NCBI GenBank assembly: GCA_900544765.1
Contig: UQWI01000007.1
Span: 1 to 64,000, forward strand
DNA length: 64,000 bases
DNA from: an uncultured Eubacteriales bacterium
Lineage (GTDB): Bacteria; Bacillota; Clostridia; Oscillospirales; Oscillospiraceae
Reading direction: 5' to 3'
Numbering within the stretch: the first letter of the stretch is position 1; the number at the start of each line of letters is the position of its first letter. Below the pieces are notes generated by a model. The model ran no database searches. It was not told the origin of the DNA and worked only from the letters and a program-made list of their open reading frames with translations. Made by a program: the position numbers and the translations under genes. Of this stretch, positions 5,218 through 21,300 are shown one piece after another.

Positions 5218-5799
5218 ATGTCAAGAAAGCTGGTGTTTCTGCCTTGTCTGCCCTGGGACTCGGCCGCGCTCGGGGACTGGGCAAACGGCCTGGCGCGAGA
5301 CGGGCTGGAGCCGCGCCGTATATCCGCTGCATTGCCCTTTCTCGCCGTTGTGGGGGACGGGCCGGCCTGTACATACACTGTAGAGCCCGCGCACGGAGCC
5401 AAGCGGGACGGCTGCCGCGTACCCTGGGTTGGCTCCCGGATTGTGCGAGGCCGTCCGGCGGGAAAGTACCCCTACGGCGGGGCGCGGCGCCGCGCGCTGA
5501 ACCTAAACTACTTGCTTTTGCTTTTCTGCAACTTCGCGCTTGCCGTGACAATCATCGGTATATCCGACGGTCAGAGTTTTCTGAGCGGCGAGGCAGAGTT
5601 TTCAACATTGGGCTCAGTGATGTTCATAATGAGCCTCATTTCCATGCTCGTCTTAATAATCGGTACTATAAGCTGCATTGTCCTGACCATCCGCGTGAAA
5701 TACAACCGCGTCTGCCTGACGGCGTTTGTGCTCACATCCATATCCGTCTGGCTGTGGGCAATTTCCCGCACATTCATGTTGATAGTTACGCTGATATAG
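5218..5799 (+). CDS. DUF2812-like small membrane protein
   Basis: A 193-residue protein of unknown function. The first 60 residues (WDSAALGDWANGLARDGLEPRRI, ending CTYTVEP) resemble the N-terminal pattern of DUF2812 proteins: a Trp/Leu-rich helix, a Gly turn and a YxxE strand. Residues 95-193 hold three hydrophobic segments. A GGGGAGG site lies just before the ATG. DUF2812 genes usually follow PadR regulators; here a LysR gene is upstream. It is probably co-transcribed with the LysR gene and ends at a strong terminator. The family assignment is by eye and tentative. Confidence 0.6.
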   Translation: MSRKLVFLPCLPWDSAALGDWANGLARDGLEPRRISAALPFLAVVGDGPACTYTVEPAHGAKRDGCRVPWVGSRIVRGRPAGKYPYGGARRRALNLNYLLLLFCNFALAVTIIGISDGQSFLSGEAEFSTLGSVMFIMSLISMLVLIIGTISCIVLTIRVKYNRVCLTAFVLTSISVWLWAISRTFMLIVTLI

Positions 5800-14213: not shown

Positions 14214-15316
14214 CAGTTTGCCGCCTTTCCGCCGCTTATCGTGATGACCTTGGCGCCGGTGCGCCGCGCTATACCGTCGTCCTCGCAGCAGGTGATGAGC
14301 GTCTGCCCGCCGCCTATCCTGTTGAGTACGAATTCCTGCCGCCTTGCGTCCAGTTCGCTGAGCACGTCGTCGAGCAGCAGCACGGGGTATTCTCCCGTCT
14401 CCTGCAGGTGTATTTCGCGCTCAGCCAGTTTGATGCTCAGCGCGGCAGTGCGCTTCTGGCCCTGTGACGCGAAGGTGCGCGCGCTCTTGCCATTTATTAC
14501 TATTTCTAGGTCGTCCTTGTGCGCGCCGGTCAGGCACTGCCCGCTCTCGAGCTCGGCCTTGCGGTGGCTCTCCTGGTGGTCGCAGACGGCGTAGTATATT
14601 TCGCGCTCGCTGGCGAAGGGGTTTTCCACAGTTGACACCGTCCTGTAGAAAAGTCTCAGCTCGTCGGAGCCGCCGGAGAACTCGCGGTGTATCGGTCCGG
14701 CCGCCTCGTCAAGCCGCGAGGCAAACGCCGCCCTGTAGCGTATCAGGCGCGCGGACAGGCGGCACATGCGCTCGGAAAAGTCGTCCAGCGTGTAGAGCAG
14801 CGAGGGTTTCTCACGGTAGTCGCGGAGTATGGCGCTCTTCTGTTCGTAGAGGCGGTTGTATTCCGTAAGTGCGGCGGCGTAGCCCGGGCGCAGCTGGCTT
14901 ATGGCGTTGTCGAGCATTTTTCTTCGGACGGACGCGCCCTCGCGCACGATAGCCAGGTCCTCCGGGCAGAATAGCACGGCGGTTATCGTTCCTGCGAGCT
15001 CGGAGGCGGTTTTTTTCACCGAATTTACGGTTATTTGCTTGCGCCTGCCCGGCGTCAGCAGGATTCTTATCGTCTGCTCCCTGCCGTGGGCCTCGATGTC
15101 AGCAAGTATCTCCGCTGATGAAAAGCCGAAGCCGACAAGCTCGCGGTCAAAGCGGCTGCGGAAGCTCCGCCCTGCCGCGAGCATGTATACGGCCTCGAGC
15201 AGGTTTGTCTTGCCCTGGGCGTTTTGCCCGCGTATTACGTTTGTGTTGGGTGAGAAGTCAAAGGCCTCGAAGTCGTAGTTGCGCCAGCCGTTCAGGGCAA
15301 TGCGCCGGACTATCAT
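14213..15316 (-). CDS. recF: DNA replication and repair protein RecF
   Basis: A 367-residue SMC-like ATPase that loads RecA at gaps via RecOR. Walker A is [11 protein letters not shown] (residues 30-40), the signature motif is in [11 protein letters not shown] and the Walker B region is [12 protein letters not shown]. The start overlaps the yaaA stop by four bases. The length matches the family. The genes on both sides are those expected around recF in Firmicutes. Confidence 0.97.
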
Positions 15317-15529: not shown

Positions 15530-16636
15530 TTATTTTGCCAGTCTTACAGGCAGGACCATGTAGACGAATTCGTCGCTCCCGTCGGCCGGGACTATGACGC
15601 AGGGAGCGCTGCCGGTGTTTATGCAGACGGTGAGCTCGTCGGTCGGGGCCGCGCGCAGCGCGTCGCGCAGGTAGCGTCCGTTGAAGCCTATCTCAGTGTC
15701 TCCTCCGTTGCCTTCGCAGGGGCAGACGTCGCGTGCGGTGCCGAGGGCCGTGCCGCAGCGGAAGTCTATGGAGCTGTCGCCGAATACGAGCCTGATGGGG
15801 CTCTTCACGGTTTCATCAACGACAAGGCTTACGCGGTCTGTGGCAGAGAGCATTTCGCCGCGGTTTACGCCGAGCTTGTACTTGAAGTTTTCGGGTATGG
15901 TTTTGCGGTAGTTTATGAATTCGCCTTCGAGCAGGCGGGAGACTACTACGGTGTCGCCTATGGTGAAAGAGACGTGGCGCTCTCCGAGGTCTATCATCAC
16001 GGGGTCCTCGCCCTTGGAGCAGAGCCTGGCCACGTCCTGAAGTACGCTGCCCGGTACGATGAAGCTGGCGGATTGGGTTTTGCCGTTCACCTCGGCGCGG
16101 CGGAGCGCAAGCCTGTAGCCGTCGACGGATACGACCGTGAGGCGGTTTTCGTCCAGCTCAAATAGGCTGCCCATATATACCGGGCGGCTCTCGTTTGTGG
16201 AAACGGCGAAAATTGTCTGCTCTATGAGCTCTGAGAGCTTCTGCTGCTCCAGGGAAATGGCGTCGGCGTAGTCGCTCTCAGGCAGCTCCGGGTAATCCTC
16301 TGCGGGCAGGCTCATAAAGGAGAACTCGCTCATGCCGCATTTTACAGTGGTTTTGCCGCCGTCGGCGACTTCTACGGTGACCATGCCGTCCGGAAGTACG
16401 CGCATCATTTCGCCTATGAGCTTTGCAGTCATGACGACAGCGCTGCCGGGCTCCTCAACGTCGGCTTCAATGCTCTGGTATATGCCTTTGCGCAGGTCGT
16501 AGCCGGTTACGCGCACGTTTGCGCCGGCCTGTATGAGCAGGCCTTCGAGGGCCGGAATGGAGCTTCTTGCGCTGGCCGCTCTGGATGCGGCGTTTACGGC
16601 GTTTTGGAGCAGCTGTTTTTCGCAGGTGAATTTCAT
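15530..16636 (-). CDS. dnaN: DNA polymerase III beta subunit (sliding clamp)
   Basis: A 368-residue sliding clamp that holds DNA polymerase III on DNA. The sequence has the three-fold repeated clamp domain structure, an N-terminus [20 protein letters not shown] and the C-terminal [11 protein letters not shown] tail lining the hydrophobic binding pocket. A perfect AAGGAGG site precedes the ATG. It follows dnaA after a 253-bp AT-rich spacer that is the likely origin. Confidence 0.98.
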
Positions 16637-16721
16637 TGTTCGTCCTCCTTGTGAGAAAGCATGCCTACGTTCTGTAAGGAAGCTATATTATTCAGTCGTA
16701 ATACTAGTAGGCGATGTTGAT

Positions 16722-16879
16722 TGTTGAAAACGGCCTCAAAGCCTTGATTTTAAAGAAAATTTTGATGTTGAAAACTTTTTGATTTTTTCAACATGAAGTG
16801 ACAGGCAAAAGATGTAAAAATTTTTTCCGACATCTTTCAACAGAAAGTTTTTAAGCTTTCAACACAGCCGTGTTGAAAG
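16722..16879. other. oriC: Candidate oriC with six variant DnaA-type boxes
   Basis: The dnaA-dnaN spacer (16637-16889) holds six copies of a 9-mer TGTTGAAA(A/G). It occurs forward at 16722, 16766 and 16871, and reversed at 16785, 16834 and 16856. The last two form an inverted pair with a 6-bp centre. Read as TTTTCAACA, the 9-mer differs from the usual TTATCCACA at two positions. No canonical box was found. The interval 16740-16830 is very AT-rich and could unwind. Position next to dnaA is the usual place for a Firmicutes origin. That these are DnaA sites is an inference. Confidence 0.65.
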
Positions 16880-16889
16880 AGCGTGTGTT

Positions 16890-18200
16890 TCAGGAGCGGG
16901 AGTTTATGTTGGCGGATATGTCGCGAACGGTGGAGGCGACGTCGGGGTCGGACTTTATCATGTCCTCGACCTTGCGTATGGAGGAGAGGACGGTGGAGTG
17001 GTTTCTGCCCTCATACTGCGCGCCTATGTCTACGAGGGAGAGGTTGGTCAGGTTGCGCATGAGATACATGGAGACCTGGCGGGCCATGGCGGTATTCTTG
17101 CTGCGGCGCTGGCCCCGCAGGTCTGCGGGCTGCAGCGAGTAGTATCTGGCCGTCTCCTCGATGATTATCTCCGGCGTGGGTATGAAGCTGCCAACCCTGA
17201 TAACGTCCTTGATGGCGCGTTTGACGACGTTTATCGTGATGGTGTCGTTCATAATCTCCTTGTAGGCCGTCAGGCGCTTTACCACGCCCTCTATCTGCCT
17301 GACGTTGCTGGTGATGCTCTCGGCGATGAAGTTCACAACTTCGCTGGGCAGGACCAGGCCGAGCTGCGCGGCCTTGTTGAGGATTATGGCCGTGCGCGTC
17401 TCAATGTCGGGCGGCTGCACGTCGGCCATAAGCCCGCCCTCTATACGGGTACGGAGACGGTCGTCGAGCTGAGCCATGTCTATGGGCGGCCGGTCGGCGG
17501 TGAGGACTATCTGGTGCCCGGCCTCATAGATGCTGTTGAAGGTGTGGAAAGTCTCCTCCTGGGTGCTTCGCTTTCCGGCTATGAACTGTATGTCGTCCAT
17601 GAGCAGCAGGTCTATGTTCCGGTACTTCTCGCGGAACTCGCGGCTGGTGCCGGTCATGACCGAGTGTATCAGCTCGTTCGTGAAGTCGTCACCCTTCAGG
17701 TAGGCAATCTTGAAGTTCGGCTTGTCGTGGTGTATCTTCTCGCCTATGGCCAGCAGCAGGTGCGTCTTGCCCAGGCCGGAGTTGCCGTAGATGAACAGCG
17801 GGTTGTAGACCTTGCCGGGGTTATTTGCGACGGCTATTGCCGCGGCGTGGGCAAATTTGTTCGACGGGCCCACGACGAAGTGGTCGAAGGTGTAGCCCTC
17901 CATCTCCGGATAAGGGCTCGGCTCCTGGCCGTCGCGCTCGTACTCGAGCAGCTCGTCGCCGGCCAGGACCTCCAGCTCAAAGTCGCAGGAGAAGAGGTCA
18001 TAAAGGGCCTTGCGTATCATCTCGCCGAAGCGGTTTTCTATTATGTTCCGTTTGAAGTCGGAGCTTGTGTGCAGTACGAGTTTGCAGTCGGCCATGTCCA
18101 CGGCCTTGCAGTCGGAAAACCAGGTGTTGAAGGCCGTCGGGGTTATTTCCTTGGATATGATGTCCAGAATCTGCTGCCAAATCTCGTCCAGAGAATCCAT
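16890..18200 (-). CDS. dnaA: Chromosomal replication initiator DnaA
   Basis: A 436-residue initiator ATPase. Domain I is at 1-75, then a short linker. The AAA+ domain has Walker A GNSGLGKTH (139-147) and Walker B LLLMDDIQ (D202-D203). The DNA-binding domain IV is near 340-436. Its base-reading motif is GRNHSTV (about 398-404) instead of the usual GRDHTTV, so the Asp is Asn and the first Thr is Ser. This may explain the non-standard boxes beside the gene. It is the first gene of the minus-strand origin block, read from a promoter at 18263-18291. Confidence 0.98.
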   Translation of the reverse strand: MDSLDEIWQQILDIISKEITPTAFNTWFSDCKAVDMADCKLVLHTSSDFKRNIIENRFGEMIRKALYDLFSCDFELEVLAGDELLEYERDGQEPSPYPEMEGYTFDHFVVGPSNKFAHAAAIAVANNPGKVYNPLFIYGNSGLGKTHLLLAIGEKIHHDKPNFKIAYLKGDDFTNELIHSVMTGTSREFREKYRNIDLLLMDDIQFIAGKRSTQEETFHTFNSIYEAGHQIVLTADRPPIDMAQLDDRLRTRIEGGLMADVQPPDIETRTAIILNKAAQLGLVLPSEVVNFIAESITSNVRQIEGVVKRLTAYKEIMNDTITINVVKRAIKDVIRVGSFIPTPEIIIEETARYYSLQPADLRGQRRSKNTAMARQVSMYLMRNLTNLSLVDIGAQYEGRNHSTVLSSIRKVEDMIKSDPDVASTVRDISANINSRS

Positions 18201-18262
18201 GGGTATCCTCCCCTCAATAAAAAACGCCCTCTGCTGTGAGGACGCACAGGTGATACAGTAAT

Positions 18263-18291
18263 ATTATAAACGATTTCATCTCTCTTGTCCA
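18263..18291 (-). promoter_or_regulatory. dnaA promoter
   Basis: On the minus strand TGGACA (18286-18291), a 17-bp spacer and a perfect TATAAT (18263-18268) lie 62 bp before the dnaA start. No copy of the TGTTGAAA 9-mer was seen in this interval. Confidence 0.7.
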
Positions 18292-18394
18292 TAATGATAT
18301 TTATATTAAATAATAGTATGCGCCAATGTAAAATCCGTCAAAACCGAGAAAGCGTGACCGGCTGCGATTGCTTTCGGGAGAGAATGCTGTTATA

Positions 18395-21300
18395 ATGCCC
18401 TATGCTATGGATGAACAGAAAAACATACTGGCATTGTCAATATTGGATGACCCTGACGCCGCCGCCCTCCCCTCACCTGAGGAGAGCGGGCGGCTTCCCG
18501 CGCTTGTCTCGGGCCTTTCGGCCGTACACAGGGCGCATCTTGCAGCGGCGCTGAGGGTTAAATATAAGCGCCCGCTTGTGGTGCTGTGTCCGGACGAGAC
18601 GGCGGCTTCAGCCCTGGCTGGAGACATATCCGCCCTGACCGGCGAGACCTGCAGCCTTCTCTCCGGGCGCGACTACGCCTTCTACAGCGCGGACGCCATG
18701 AGCCGCGGCACGGAGCAGCGGCGCATCAACGCCCTGGCCGCCCTGATGAACGGCGCAAGCGTTACAGTCGTGACTGCGGAGGGGCTGTTTCAGCGTACCA
18801 TGCCGCCGGAGGTGTTCCGCCGTGCGGTGTTTGAGATAGATATGCAGAGCCAGACGGCGCCCGAGGACGTTGAGGACGCGCTTTTGCGCTGCGGATATTC
18901 GAGGGCCGTTCAGGTAGAGGGACCGGGACAGTTTTCGCGCCGTGGCGGCATACTGGACTTCTTCTCTCCGGCTTACAGCCAGCCTGTACGCATTGAGTTC
19001 TGGGGAGACGAGATAGACTCCATGGGCTTCTTCGACACGGGCACTCAGCGCCGCACGGAGAGCATAGACAGGTGCGCCGTGGTCCCGGCCGCCGAGGTAC
19101 TGCCCACGCTTGCAAAGGGCGGTGCGCACGCCCTGGCAAACGAGCTGGTCAGGCTGGCGGACAGGGCAATGAAGCGGCGCTCGGGCGAGACTGGTCCCGC
19201 CCTGGCCGCCGTGCTGCGCGAGGATGCCGACAGGCTGCTCTCCGGCGCGGAACTGCCCGCTGCGGACCGCTACGCCTCTCTCATCTACGGCGACACCACG
19301 ACTGCCATAGACTACATACCCTCCGGCGCGCTCATCGTCATGGACCAGCCGTCCAGGTTCAGCGAGAACGCGAGGGCGTACATAAAACGCGTCACAGAGG
19401 ACGTCACAAGCCTCACACGCGCCGCAAAGCTCATATCCAAACCCGACGACTACTTCATCCCCTTCGACGCCGCCATGCGCCGCCTGGGAGCCATGGCGCT
19501 GTATATGGCCGACTCTTTCACCGCCGGACGCTATCCCGTCGAGCCGAGGAGCGTCAATGTAGTGCGCGCAAAGCAATTGCCAAGCTACGGCGGCAGCTCC
19601 ACGCAGGCGGCGGAGGACATCTCCGGCTATCTGAAGGGCGGCTTCGCCGTTGCAGTGCTTGCGGGCGACATGCGCCGTGCAAAGCTGCTGACGGAGTTTT
19701 TGAACGGGCACGCGGTGAAATGCCTGCTCTCGGAAAATCTCAGCGCCCTGCCGAAGCCCGGTGAGTGCGTCGTGACGGCCGGAAGCCTGTCTGCCGGGCT
19801 CGAGTACCCGGGAATACGCCTCGCGGTGCTCACGGACACGCAGATAGCCGGCAGCGGCTTCAGAAAGCCGAAGCGCAAGGCAAAACGCAAGCTGTCGAAC
19901 GCAGAGCGCATAGGCTCGTATACCGACCTGTCCGTCGGCGACCTCGTCGTACACGAGCACCACGGCATAGGCCGTTTTGCGGGCGTTGTGCGCATGCCTG
20001 TCGACGGCGTGGAGAAGGACTATATCAAGATAAGCTACGCCGGCAGCGACGTGCTGTACGTTCCCGCGACGCAGCTGGATTTGGTGAGCAAATACATAGG
20101 CGCGGGCGAGGACAGGCCGGTGCGCCTTTCCAAGATGGGCGGCACGGAGTGGCAGCGCACAAAGACCCGGGCAAAGGCCGCGGCGAAAAAGCTGGCCGGC
20201 GAGCTCATAGCGCTCTATGCCGAGCGCGCCCGCCGCCAGGGTCACGCCTTTGCGCCGGATTCTCCCTGGCAGACTGAGTTTGAGGAGCGCTTCCCCTACG
20301 AGGAGACCTCCGACCAGCTCCGCTGCGTGGAGGAGATAAAGTCCGACATGGAGAAGCCCGTGCCGATGGACCGCCTGCTTTGCGGCGACGTGGGCTACGG
20401 CAAAACCGAGGTCGCCCTGCGCGCCGTGATGAAGTGTATCCTCGACGGGAAGCAGGCGGCCATACTCGTGCCGACCACCGTCCTGGCCCAGCAGCATTAT
20501 CAGACGGCGGTGCAGCGCTTCGCAGGTTACCCGGTTGACATACAGGTGCTGAGCCGTTTCCGGACGGCGTCGCAGGTAAAAAAGACGCTCTCCGACGTGG
20601 CCGACGGCAGGTGCGACTTGGTCATAGGCACGCACCGCCTTTTGCAGAAGGACATCAGATTCAAGGACCTGGGCCTGCTTGTCGTCGACGAGGAGCAGCG
20701 CTTCGGAGTGTCCCACAAGGAACATATCAAGGAGCTCAGCCGTCAAGTAGACGTGCTGACCCTCTCGGCGACGCCGATACCGCGAACGCTGAATATGGCG
20801 CTCAGCGGTATACGCGACATGTCCACGATAGAGGAGCCGCCTATGGAACGTCTGCCGGTGCAGACCTTCGTTATGGAGCACGACTGGGGCGTCCTGGCCG
20901 ACGCCATGCGCCGCGAACTGGACAGGGGCGGCCAGGTCTATTATCTGCACAACCGCGTGGACAACATAGAGCGCACGGCGATGAAAATATCCGAGCTCAT
21001 GGACGGCGCAGTCGTCGCCGTGGCCCACGGCAAGATGGACGCCGAGCAGCTCGGCCGCATCATGGAGGACATGGCCGAGGGCAGCATACAGATACTTGTG
21101 TGTACGACGATAATCGAGACGGGCATAGATATACCCAACGTTAACACCCTCATAATCGAGGACGCCGACAAGCTCGGCCTCGCGCAGCTGCACCAGATTC
21201 GCGGACGCGTTGGGCGCAGCGCGCGCAGGGCGAGCGCGTACTTGACCTTCCGGCGGGACAAGGTGCTCAGCGAGATAGCCGAAAAGCGGCTCGAGGCCAT

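Follow-up and report, generated by a model that had tools for sequence, protein, structure and literature searches.

DnaA and its binding site, the DnaA box, are essential and commonly called highly conserved. The locus analysed here raises the question of whether protein and site can nevertheless change together, as the first-pass annotation of this DNA had proposed on the basis of unusual repeats beside dnaA and unusual residues in the encoded protein. The stretch of DNA that was analysed, referred to as the window, spans 64,000 nucleotides and comes from an Oscillospirales bacterium that resembles Candidatus Scatomorpha. In a genome scan, its closest DnaA relatives (81-88% identity) were found in two Candidatus Scatomorpha species and in uncultured Oscillospiraceae and Clostridia assemblies. 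Leftward, the locus encodes dnaA, dnaN and a recF-like gene, and rightward mfd, which is divergent from dnaA (18201-18500). The rpmH-dnaA gene order known for other Firmicutes was not observed here because a simple pattern search returned no rpmH start, neither in the window nor in any of 20 loci over 6 kb (20/20 negative). The features discussed below are collected in Table 1.

Table 1. Position, strand and basis of assignment of the features at the dnaA-dnaN locus of the window.
Feature	Position	Strand	Basis
dnaN	15530..16636	-	ORF; Pfam
dnaA-dnaN spacer, 253 bp, proposed replication origin	16637..16889	.	flanking genes, box cluster, trio
AT-rich stretch past trios, possible unwinding start	16680..16691	-	sequence
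DnaA-trio run TAC TAG TAT TAC GAC TGA	16692..16709	-	sequence; likened to C. difficile trio (PMC7561715)
ATCAACA, shorter second BUS box abutting the first	16715..16721	-	clade alignment
DnaA box TTTTCAACA, BUS box beside trios	16722..16730	-	sequence match, trio position
DnaA box TTTTCAACA	16766..16774	-	sequence match
DnaA box TTTTCAACA	16785..16793	+	sequence match
DnaA box CTTTCAACA	16834..16842	+	sequence match
DnaA box CTTTCAACA	16856..16864	+	sequence match; inverted-repeat partner of 16871-16879
Inverted repeat, two 10-bp arms and 4-nt loop	16856-16879		sequence
DnaA box CTTTCAACA	16871..16879	-	sequence match
dnaA, 436 aa	16890..18200	-	ORF; Pfam Bac_DnaA, Bac_DnaA_C, DnaA_N

Six 9-mers, three copies of TTTTCAACA and three of CTTTCAACA, are located in both orientations within 158 bp between dnaA and dnaN, as the first-pass annotation had described. 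It had also noted the lack of the classical box TTATCCACA from the spacer, and indeed no exact copy could be identified in the 64 kb and no one-mismatch copy in 16500-18420. The 8-mer TTTCAACA occurs 6 times; shuffling the spacer 2000 times with dinucleotides preserved gave a mean of 0.078 and a maximum of 2 copies, and any 8-mer at all reached at least 6 copies in 9 of the 2000 shuffles. The copy number of TTTCAACA is far above chance given the composition of the spacer. Whole-window shuffles were dropped as a null model in favor of spacer shuffles because intergenic AT content probably inflates box counts. A second box cluster is not found elsewhere in the 64-kb window. Lone copies outside the proposed origin are TTTTCAACA at 5599, 28200 and 52106 and TTTTCCACA at 14622, 23507, 27710, 32394 and 43683. 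The two boxes closest to dnaA are convergent and form the inverted repeat, located 10 bp past the dnaA stop codon, which might fold within the dnaA transcript.

The E. coli box consensus is given as TTWTNCACA (PMC7561715). All six boxes of the window carry A in place of C at position 6, which represents a true departure, while the T at position 3, initially counted as a second difference, fits the classical consensus and is none.

The dnaA-dnaN spacer is probably a replication origin of the basal unwinding system (BUS) type, an arrangement known from B. subtilis among other organisms (PMC8287927, PMC10721633), as a tandem box is followed by a run of DnaA-trios. The box cluster expected in the dnaA-dnaN spacer of such origins is present in the form of the six variant-sequence boxes. 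In the direction of dnaA, the BUS box is followed by the abutting ATCAACA, by TCGCC, by the trio run and finally by the AT-rich stretch. The trio run starts 12 bp past the BUS box and thus lies within the 16 bp of a box specified by the BUS rule (PMC8287927). The arrangement can be aligned across the genus-like clade of the window, where the BUS box is present in 14/14 loci. Inspected by eye, it reads TTTTCAACA in 7 loci, TTTTCCACA in 5 and TTTTGAACA in 2, a second BUS box of the form [AT]TC[AG]ACA is found at the same place in 8/14, and the alignment column of the box at 16834..16842 retains TGTTGAAA[A/G] in 10/14. The two loci with TTTTGAACA (L036, L037), in which position 5 is changed, are near relatives with Leu423.

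That the repeats are sites for another DNA-binding protein and not DnaA boxes is scarcely credible: the inverted repeat and the departure from TTATCCACA would suit such a protein, but the aligned BUS site in relatives is the classical-type TTTTCCACA, placed directly before the DnaA-trios. Regarding the spacer as an origin, DnaA would bind the box cluster via its domain IV, the tandem box beside the trios would steer a DnaA filament onto one of the strands, after which the duplex would open. While the BUS-type anatomy can be read directly from the DNA, such DnaA-dependent function is what the anatomy predicts. GC skew across the window gave no clear signal, and the strand layout of ORFs was dropped as origin evidence as it picks antisense ORFs, including dnaA's own.

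With the BUS origins of B. subtilis (boxes 6/7 and trios) and C. difficile (oriC2), as described in PMC8287927 and PMC7561715, the spacer shares the position between dnaA and dnaN, the tandem boxes, the short gap and the trio run; it differs in that its boxes are TTTTCAACA and CTTTCAACA. In addition, C. difficile carries box clusters on both sides of dnaA according to PMC7561715, whereas in the window no box of the forms searched occurs within 300 nt upstream of dnaA (18201-18500), so the arrangement seen here is not that of a bipartite origin.

Alignment of the protein confirmed that domain IV of the window's DnaA reads GRNHSTV instead of GRDHTTV, meaning that Asn433 and Ser435 (E. coli numbering) replace Asp433 and Thr435. 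Further changes are found near the contact residues: helix 4 reads LSLVDIG, compared with LSLPKIG in many other Clostridia examined, and Ser occupies the place of E. coli H439. Base-specific contacts are listed for residues 399, 423, 432-435 and 438-439 (PMC5043019), and Asp433 and Leu438 have been assigned to box position 7 (PMC8235120). For Asp433 this is position 7 and not position 6, which weighs against tying residue 433 to base 6.

For an analysis of covariation between residues and boxes, dnaA-dnaN loci were gathered from close relatives and from the family, order, class and phylum. From 414 loci read, including the window, 55 duplicate spacers, 25 loci in which no dnaN was found, 7 loci with unsuitable spacer length and 4 with a short dnaA were removed, which left 323 loci. 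Boxes were counted in the form NTNTC[A/C]ACA, and 22 of the 323 loci had neither an A6 nor a C6 box and did not enter the regression (301 loci), which was corrected for spacer GC and for a tree of DnaA built with the contact region omitted. The composite state Asn433-and-not-Ala435 was framed after part of the data had been inspected. As a guard against hindsight, the full DnaA alignment was scanned for every composite that pairs the presence of one residue state with the absence of another ('X and not Y'), provided that at least 12 loci remained. Further, a prediction was written down beforehand for the 90 last loci, 67 of them usable, which are also included in the 301.

Boxes with A6 are concentrated in loci whose DnaA combines Asn433 with a hydroxyl residue at position 435. 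Asn433/Ser435 (48 loci) has 105 A6 to 55 C6 boxes and Asn433/Thr435 (10 loci) 15 to 5, while the ratio is 37:134 for Asn433/Ala435 (40 loci), 71:299 for Asp433/Thr435 (104 loci), 87:203 for Asp433/Ser435 (83 loci) and 4:32 for His433 (11 loci). Pooled, Asn433 with Ser/Thr435 shows 120:60 versus 158:502 for Asp433 with Ser/Thr435. The five Asp433/Ala435 loci lean to A as well (10:6; coefficient 0.31, t 2.4). After correction for GC and tree, Asn433 without Ala435 raises the A fraction by 0.38 (t 5.8, likelihood ratio 31.2, 301 loci), with split coefficients of 0.42 for Asn+Ser, 0.40 for Asn+Thr, 0.04 for Asn+Ala and 0.01 for Asp+Ser. Among 978,229 composites, Asn433-and-not-Ala435 is the only one to reach its own |t|, and the largest |t| of any of 1660 single states is 3.45, with Asn433 alone at rank 69. 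The effect holds for each of four box definitions, persists without the window's clade (t 5.2) and is found both outside the main Asn433 clade (9/207 loci, t 3.6) and within it (49/94 loci, t 3.5). In the held-out set, 8 loci carry Asn433 with Ser/Thr435, and the 3 of these that have boxes show 6 A to 2 C, versus 50:109 for Asp433 with Ser/Thr435, a result in the predicted direction with little power.

Phylogenetically independent pairs favor the composite by 12.0 to 1.8 (p about 0.013). On a Ser/Thr435 background, Asn is favored over Asp by 8.2 to 0.6 (p about 0.04), on an Asp433 background Ser over Thr by 9.8 to 7.8, which amounts to no effect, and within Asn433 Ser/Thr over Ala by 6.5 to 1.6, which is not significant (p about 0.29). 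A natural contrast is provided by two GKNHSTV loci, with A6:C6 counts of 4:0 and 4:0, and four related NRDHSTV loci with 0:4, 0:4, 0:5 and 0:5; in the tree, L228 is adjacent to L241, L249 and L254, and residues 423, 431 and 432 also distinguish the two groups. The expectation that D-to-N and T-to-S would both accompany the variant boxes is thus borne out in part: D-to-N does so provided that 435 is Ser or Thr, while Thr435Ser was rejected as a cause, as the Asp+Ser coefficient is near zero and Ser and Thr behave alike. Asp433Asn alone also failed as a tracker of the box, as Asn433 with Ala435 mostly keeps C6.

Raw base counts point to positions 6 and 5 as the main differences between the two Asn433 classes, with A6 at 0.66 for Ser/Thr435 versus 0.23 for Ala435 and C5 at 0.66 versus 0.93. 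In Asp/His433 loci, A6 stands at 0.24 and C5 at 0.80, and A3 is commoner and A9 rarer; at positions 7 and 8 the three residue classes resemble one another. Position 3 was dropped as part of the change, as its raw difference (A3 0.05-0.10 for Asn433 versus 0.32 for Asp433/His433) fails tree correction and no covariation with the residues is left (beta -0.02). A decoy with G at position 5, comparing NTNTGAACA (A6) with NTNTGCACA (C6), shows a weak, non-significant lean the same way (t 1.5).

Base composition has some influence, as the A fraction falls with rising spacer GC (t about -3.6). Together with loci that carry many CAACA boxes alongside GRDHTTV or GRDHTTI (L070, L077, L083) and with the occurrence of A or C in the same BUS box among window-clade loci, this is what would be expected if clostridial DnaA read position 6 loosely, AT-biased mutation and drift spread A6, and the link to 433/435 were a phylogenetic coincidence. 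We regard this as unlikely. The association survives correction for GC and tree, comes top among the 978,229 composites and is seen again beyond the main clade; GRNHSTV spacers are GC-richer than GRDHTTV spacers (mean 0.44 versus 0.36) yet hold more A6; and dnaA coding DNA shows no A6 excess in the Asn433 with Ser/Thr435 class (8:30, compared with 5:28 for Asn433 with Ala435 and 43:94 for Asp/His433).

Even less probable is that a linked domain IV residue, at helix 4 position 423 or at 438/439, sets the preference while 433/435 hitchhike. A hydrophobic residue at 423 appeared predictive in the first 138 loci, and two loci combining Val423 with Asp433 (L121, L250) have more A6 than C6 boxes. 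However, the 423 term weakened as loci were added (t 1.0), which led to its rejection as the reader, Lys423 together with Asn433 and Ser/Thr435 is also accompanied by A6 boxes (28:9 and 8:1), and no single state at 423, 438 or 439 ranks higher than 141st of 1660.

The proposed joint change of box and reader can therefore be retained as a covariation across Oscillospirales, but not as an obligate switch. The 64 loci with Asn433 and Ser/Thr435 include 35 with more A, 11 with more C, 12 ties and 6 with neither, and A6-only boxes occur in 12 of 192 Asp433 loci (for example L121, L285, L286, L298 and L320). In the window's clade, the motif is GRNHSTV in 13/14 loci and DRNHSTV in 1/14, despite the mixture of TTTTCAACA, TTTTCCACA and TTTTGAACA as BUS box. 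Relatives with GRNHST that keep classical boxes had been named in advance as evidence against a joint change, and the five classical-type BUS boxes of this clade partly answer to that description. A shifted and relaxed preference, as opposed to a strict switch, is suggested because mixed boxes occur in both residue classes. From these comparisons of sequences, we consider it likely that DnaA with Asn433 and Ser435 goes with a base-6 preference moved from C to A, with C still accepted, in a BUS-type origin.

In chemical terms, Asp433 is limited to accepting hydrogen bonds, while Asn433 could both donate and accept them, as in the common Asn-adenine pair, such that adenine may be tolerated or favored next to the contacted A7. 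Asn433 would be the main factor, residue 435 would need to carry a hydroxyl (Ser or Thr), and Ala435 would cancel the effect. With Asn433, A6 boxes would then function roughly on a par with C6 boxes, and drift or selection may move box sets towards A6. A broader hypothesis, to which we would give even chances, is that residues 433 and 435 jointly act as a code for base 6, with a looser hold on base 5, and that Oscillospirales changed this code several times and in both directions, rewriting whole box sets each time; Asn433 combined with a hydroxyl residue at 435 would be the relaxed state that lets C6 become A6.

Altered boxes have been described in other lineages. The Mollicute box TTWTCAACA contains the same C6-to-A change (PMC3322544), and the window holds three exact copies of this 9-mer and three with C at position 1; the lineage is a different one, and the comparison is between box sequences. 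The source of the motif itself doubts TTWTCAACA in phytoplasmas (PMC3322544). Epsilonproteobacterial DnaA likewise combines an altered box core with altered helix-5 residues, among which Ser is frequent at 435 (PMC5043019). In that group, box position 5 carries T, and the same source describes residues 433-434 as a highly conserved pair, while in the window position 6 is changed, residue 433 is Asn and the boxes read TCAAC in place of the TTCAC core (positions 4-8). The cyanobacterial box TTTTCCACA has T3, as do many relatives of the window, and C6, unlike the window, and a single box with the C6-to-A change has been predicted in a cyanobacterium (PMC4674748). Coevolution of DnaA and its box is stated in general terms in a review (PMC4285127), and residues 435, 438 and 439 were suspected earlier (PMC5043019). 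C6-to-A boxes and coevolution in general are thus already known, and what appears to be new is a specific residue pair tied to a specific base. A published link of residues 433/435 with position 6 did not come up in literature searches limited to openly licensed papers, which is weak evidence of absence.

The data single out one residue pair and one base, and related lineages differ in opposite ways. The joint change of an essential initiator and all of its sites thereby becomes a directly testable question. Further, origin finders tuned to TTATCCACA can overlook origins of this kind.

A loss of the box cluster upstream of dnaA seemed linked to Asn433 across the complete set (5 boxes in 39 loci and 8 in 24 versus 129 in 77), but the link was discarded, as counts in the window's clade and its near kin are low for Asp433 (6 boxes in 14 loci) as well as for Asn433 (12 in 58). 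Two loci with the DnaA motif NRNYTTI, in which His434 is changed as well (L097, L098), have 0 and 1 recognizable spacer boxes, respectively. Five Asn433 loci of the order (L344, L347, L357, L364 and L397) have spacers without an A6 or C6 box of the searched form and may use yet another box.
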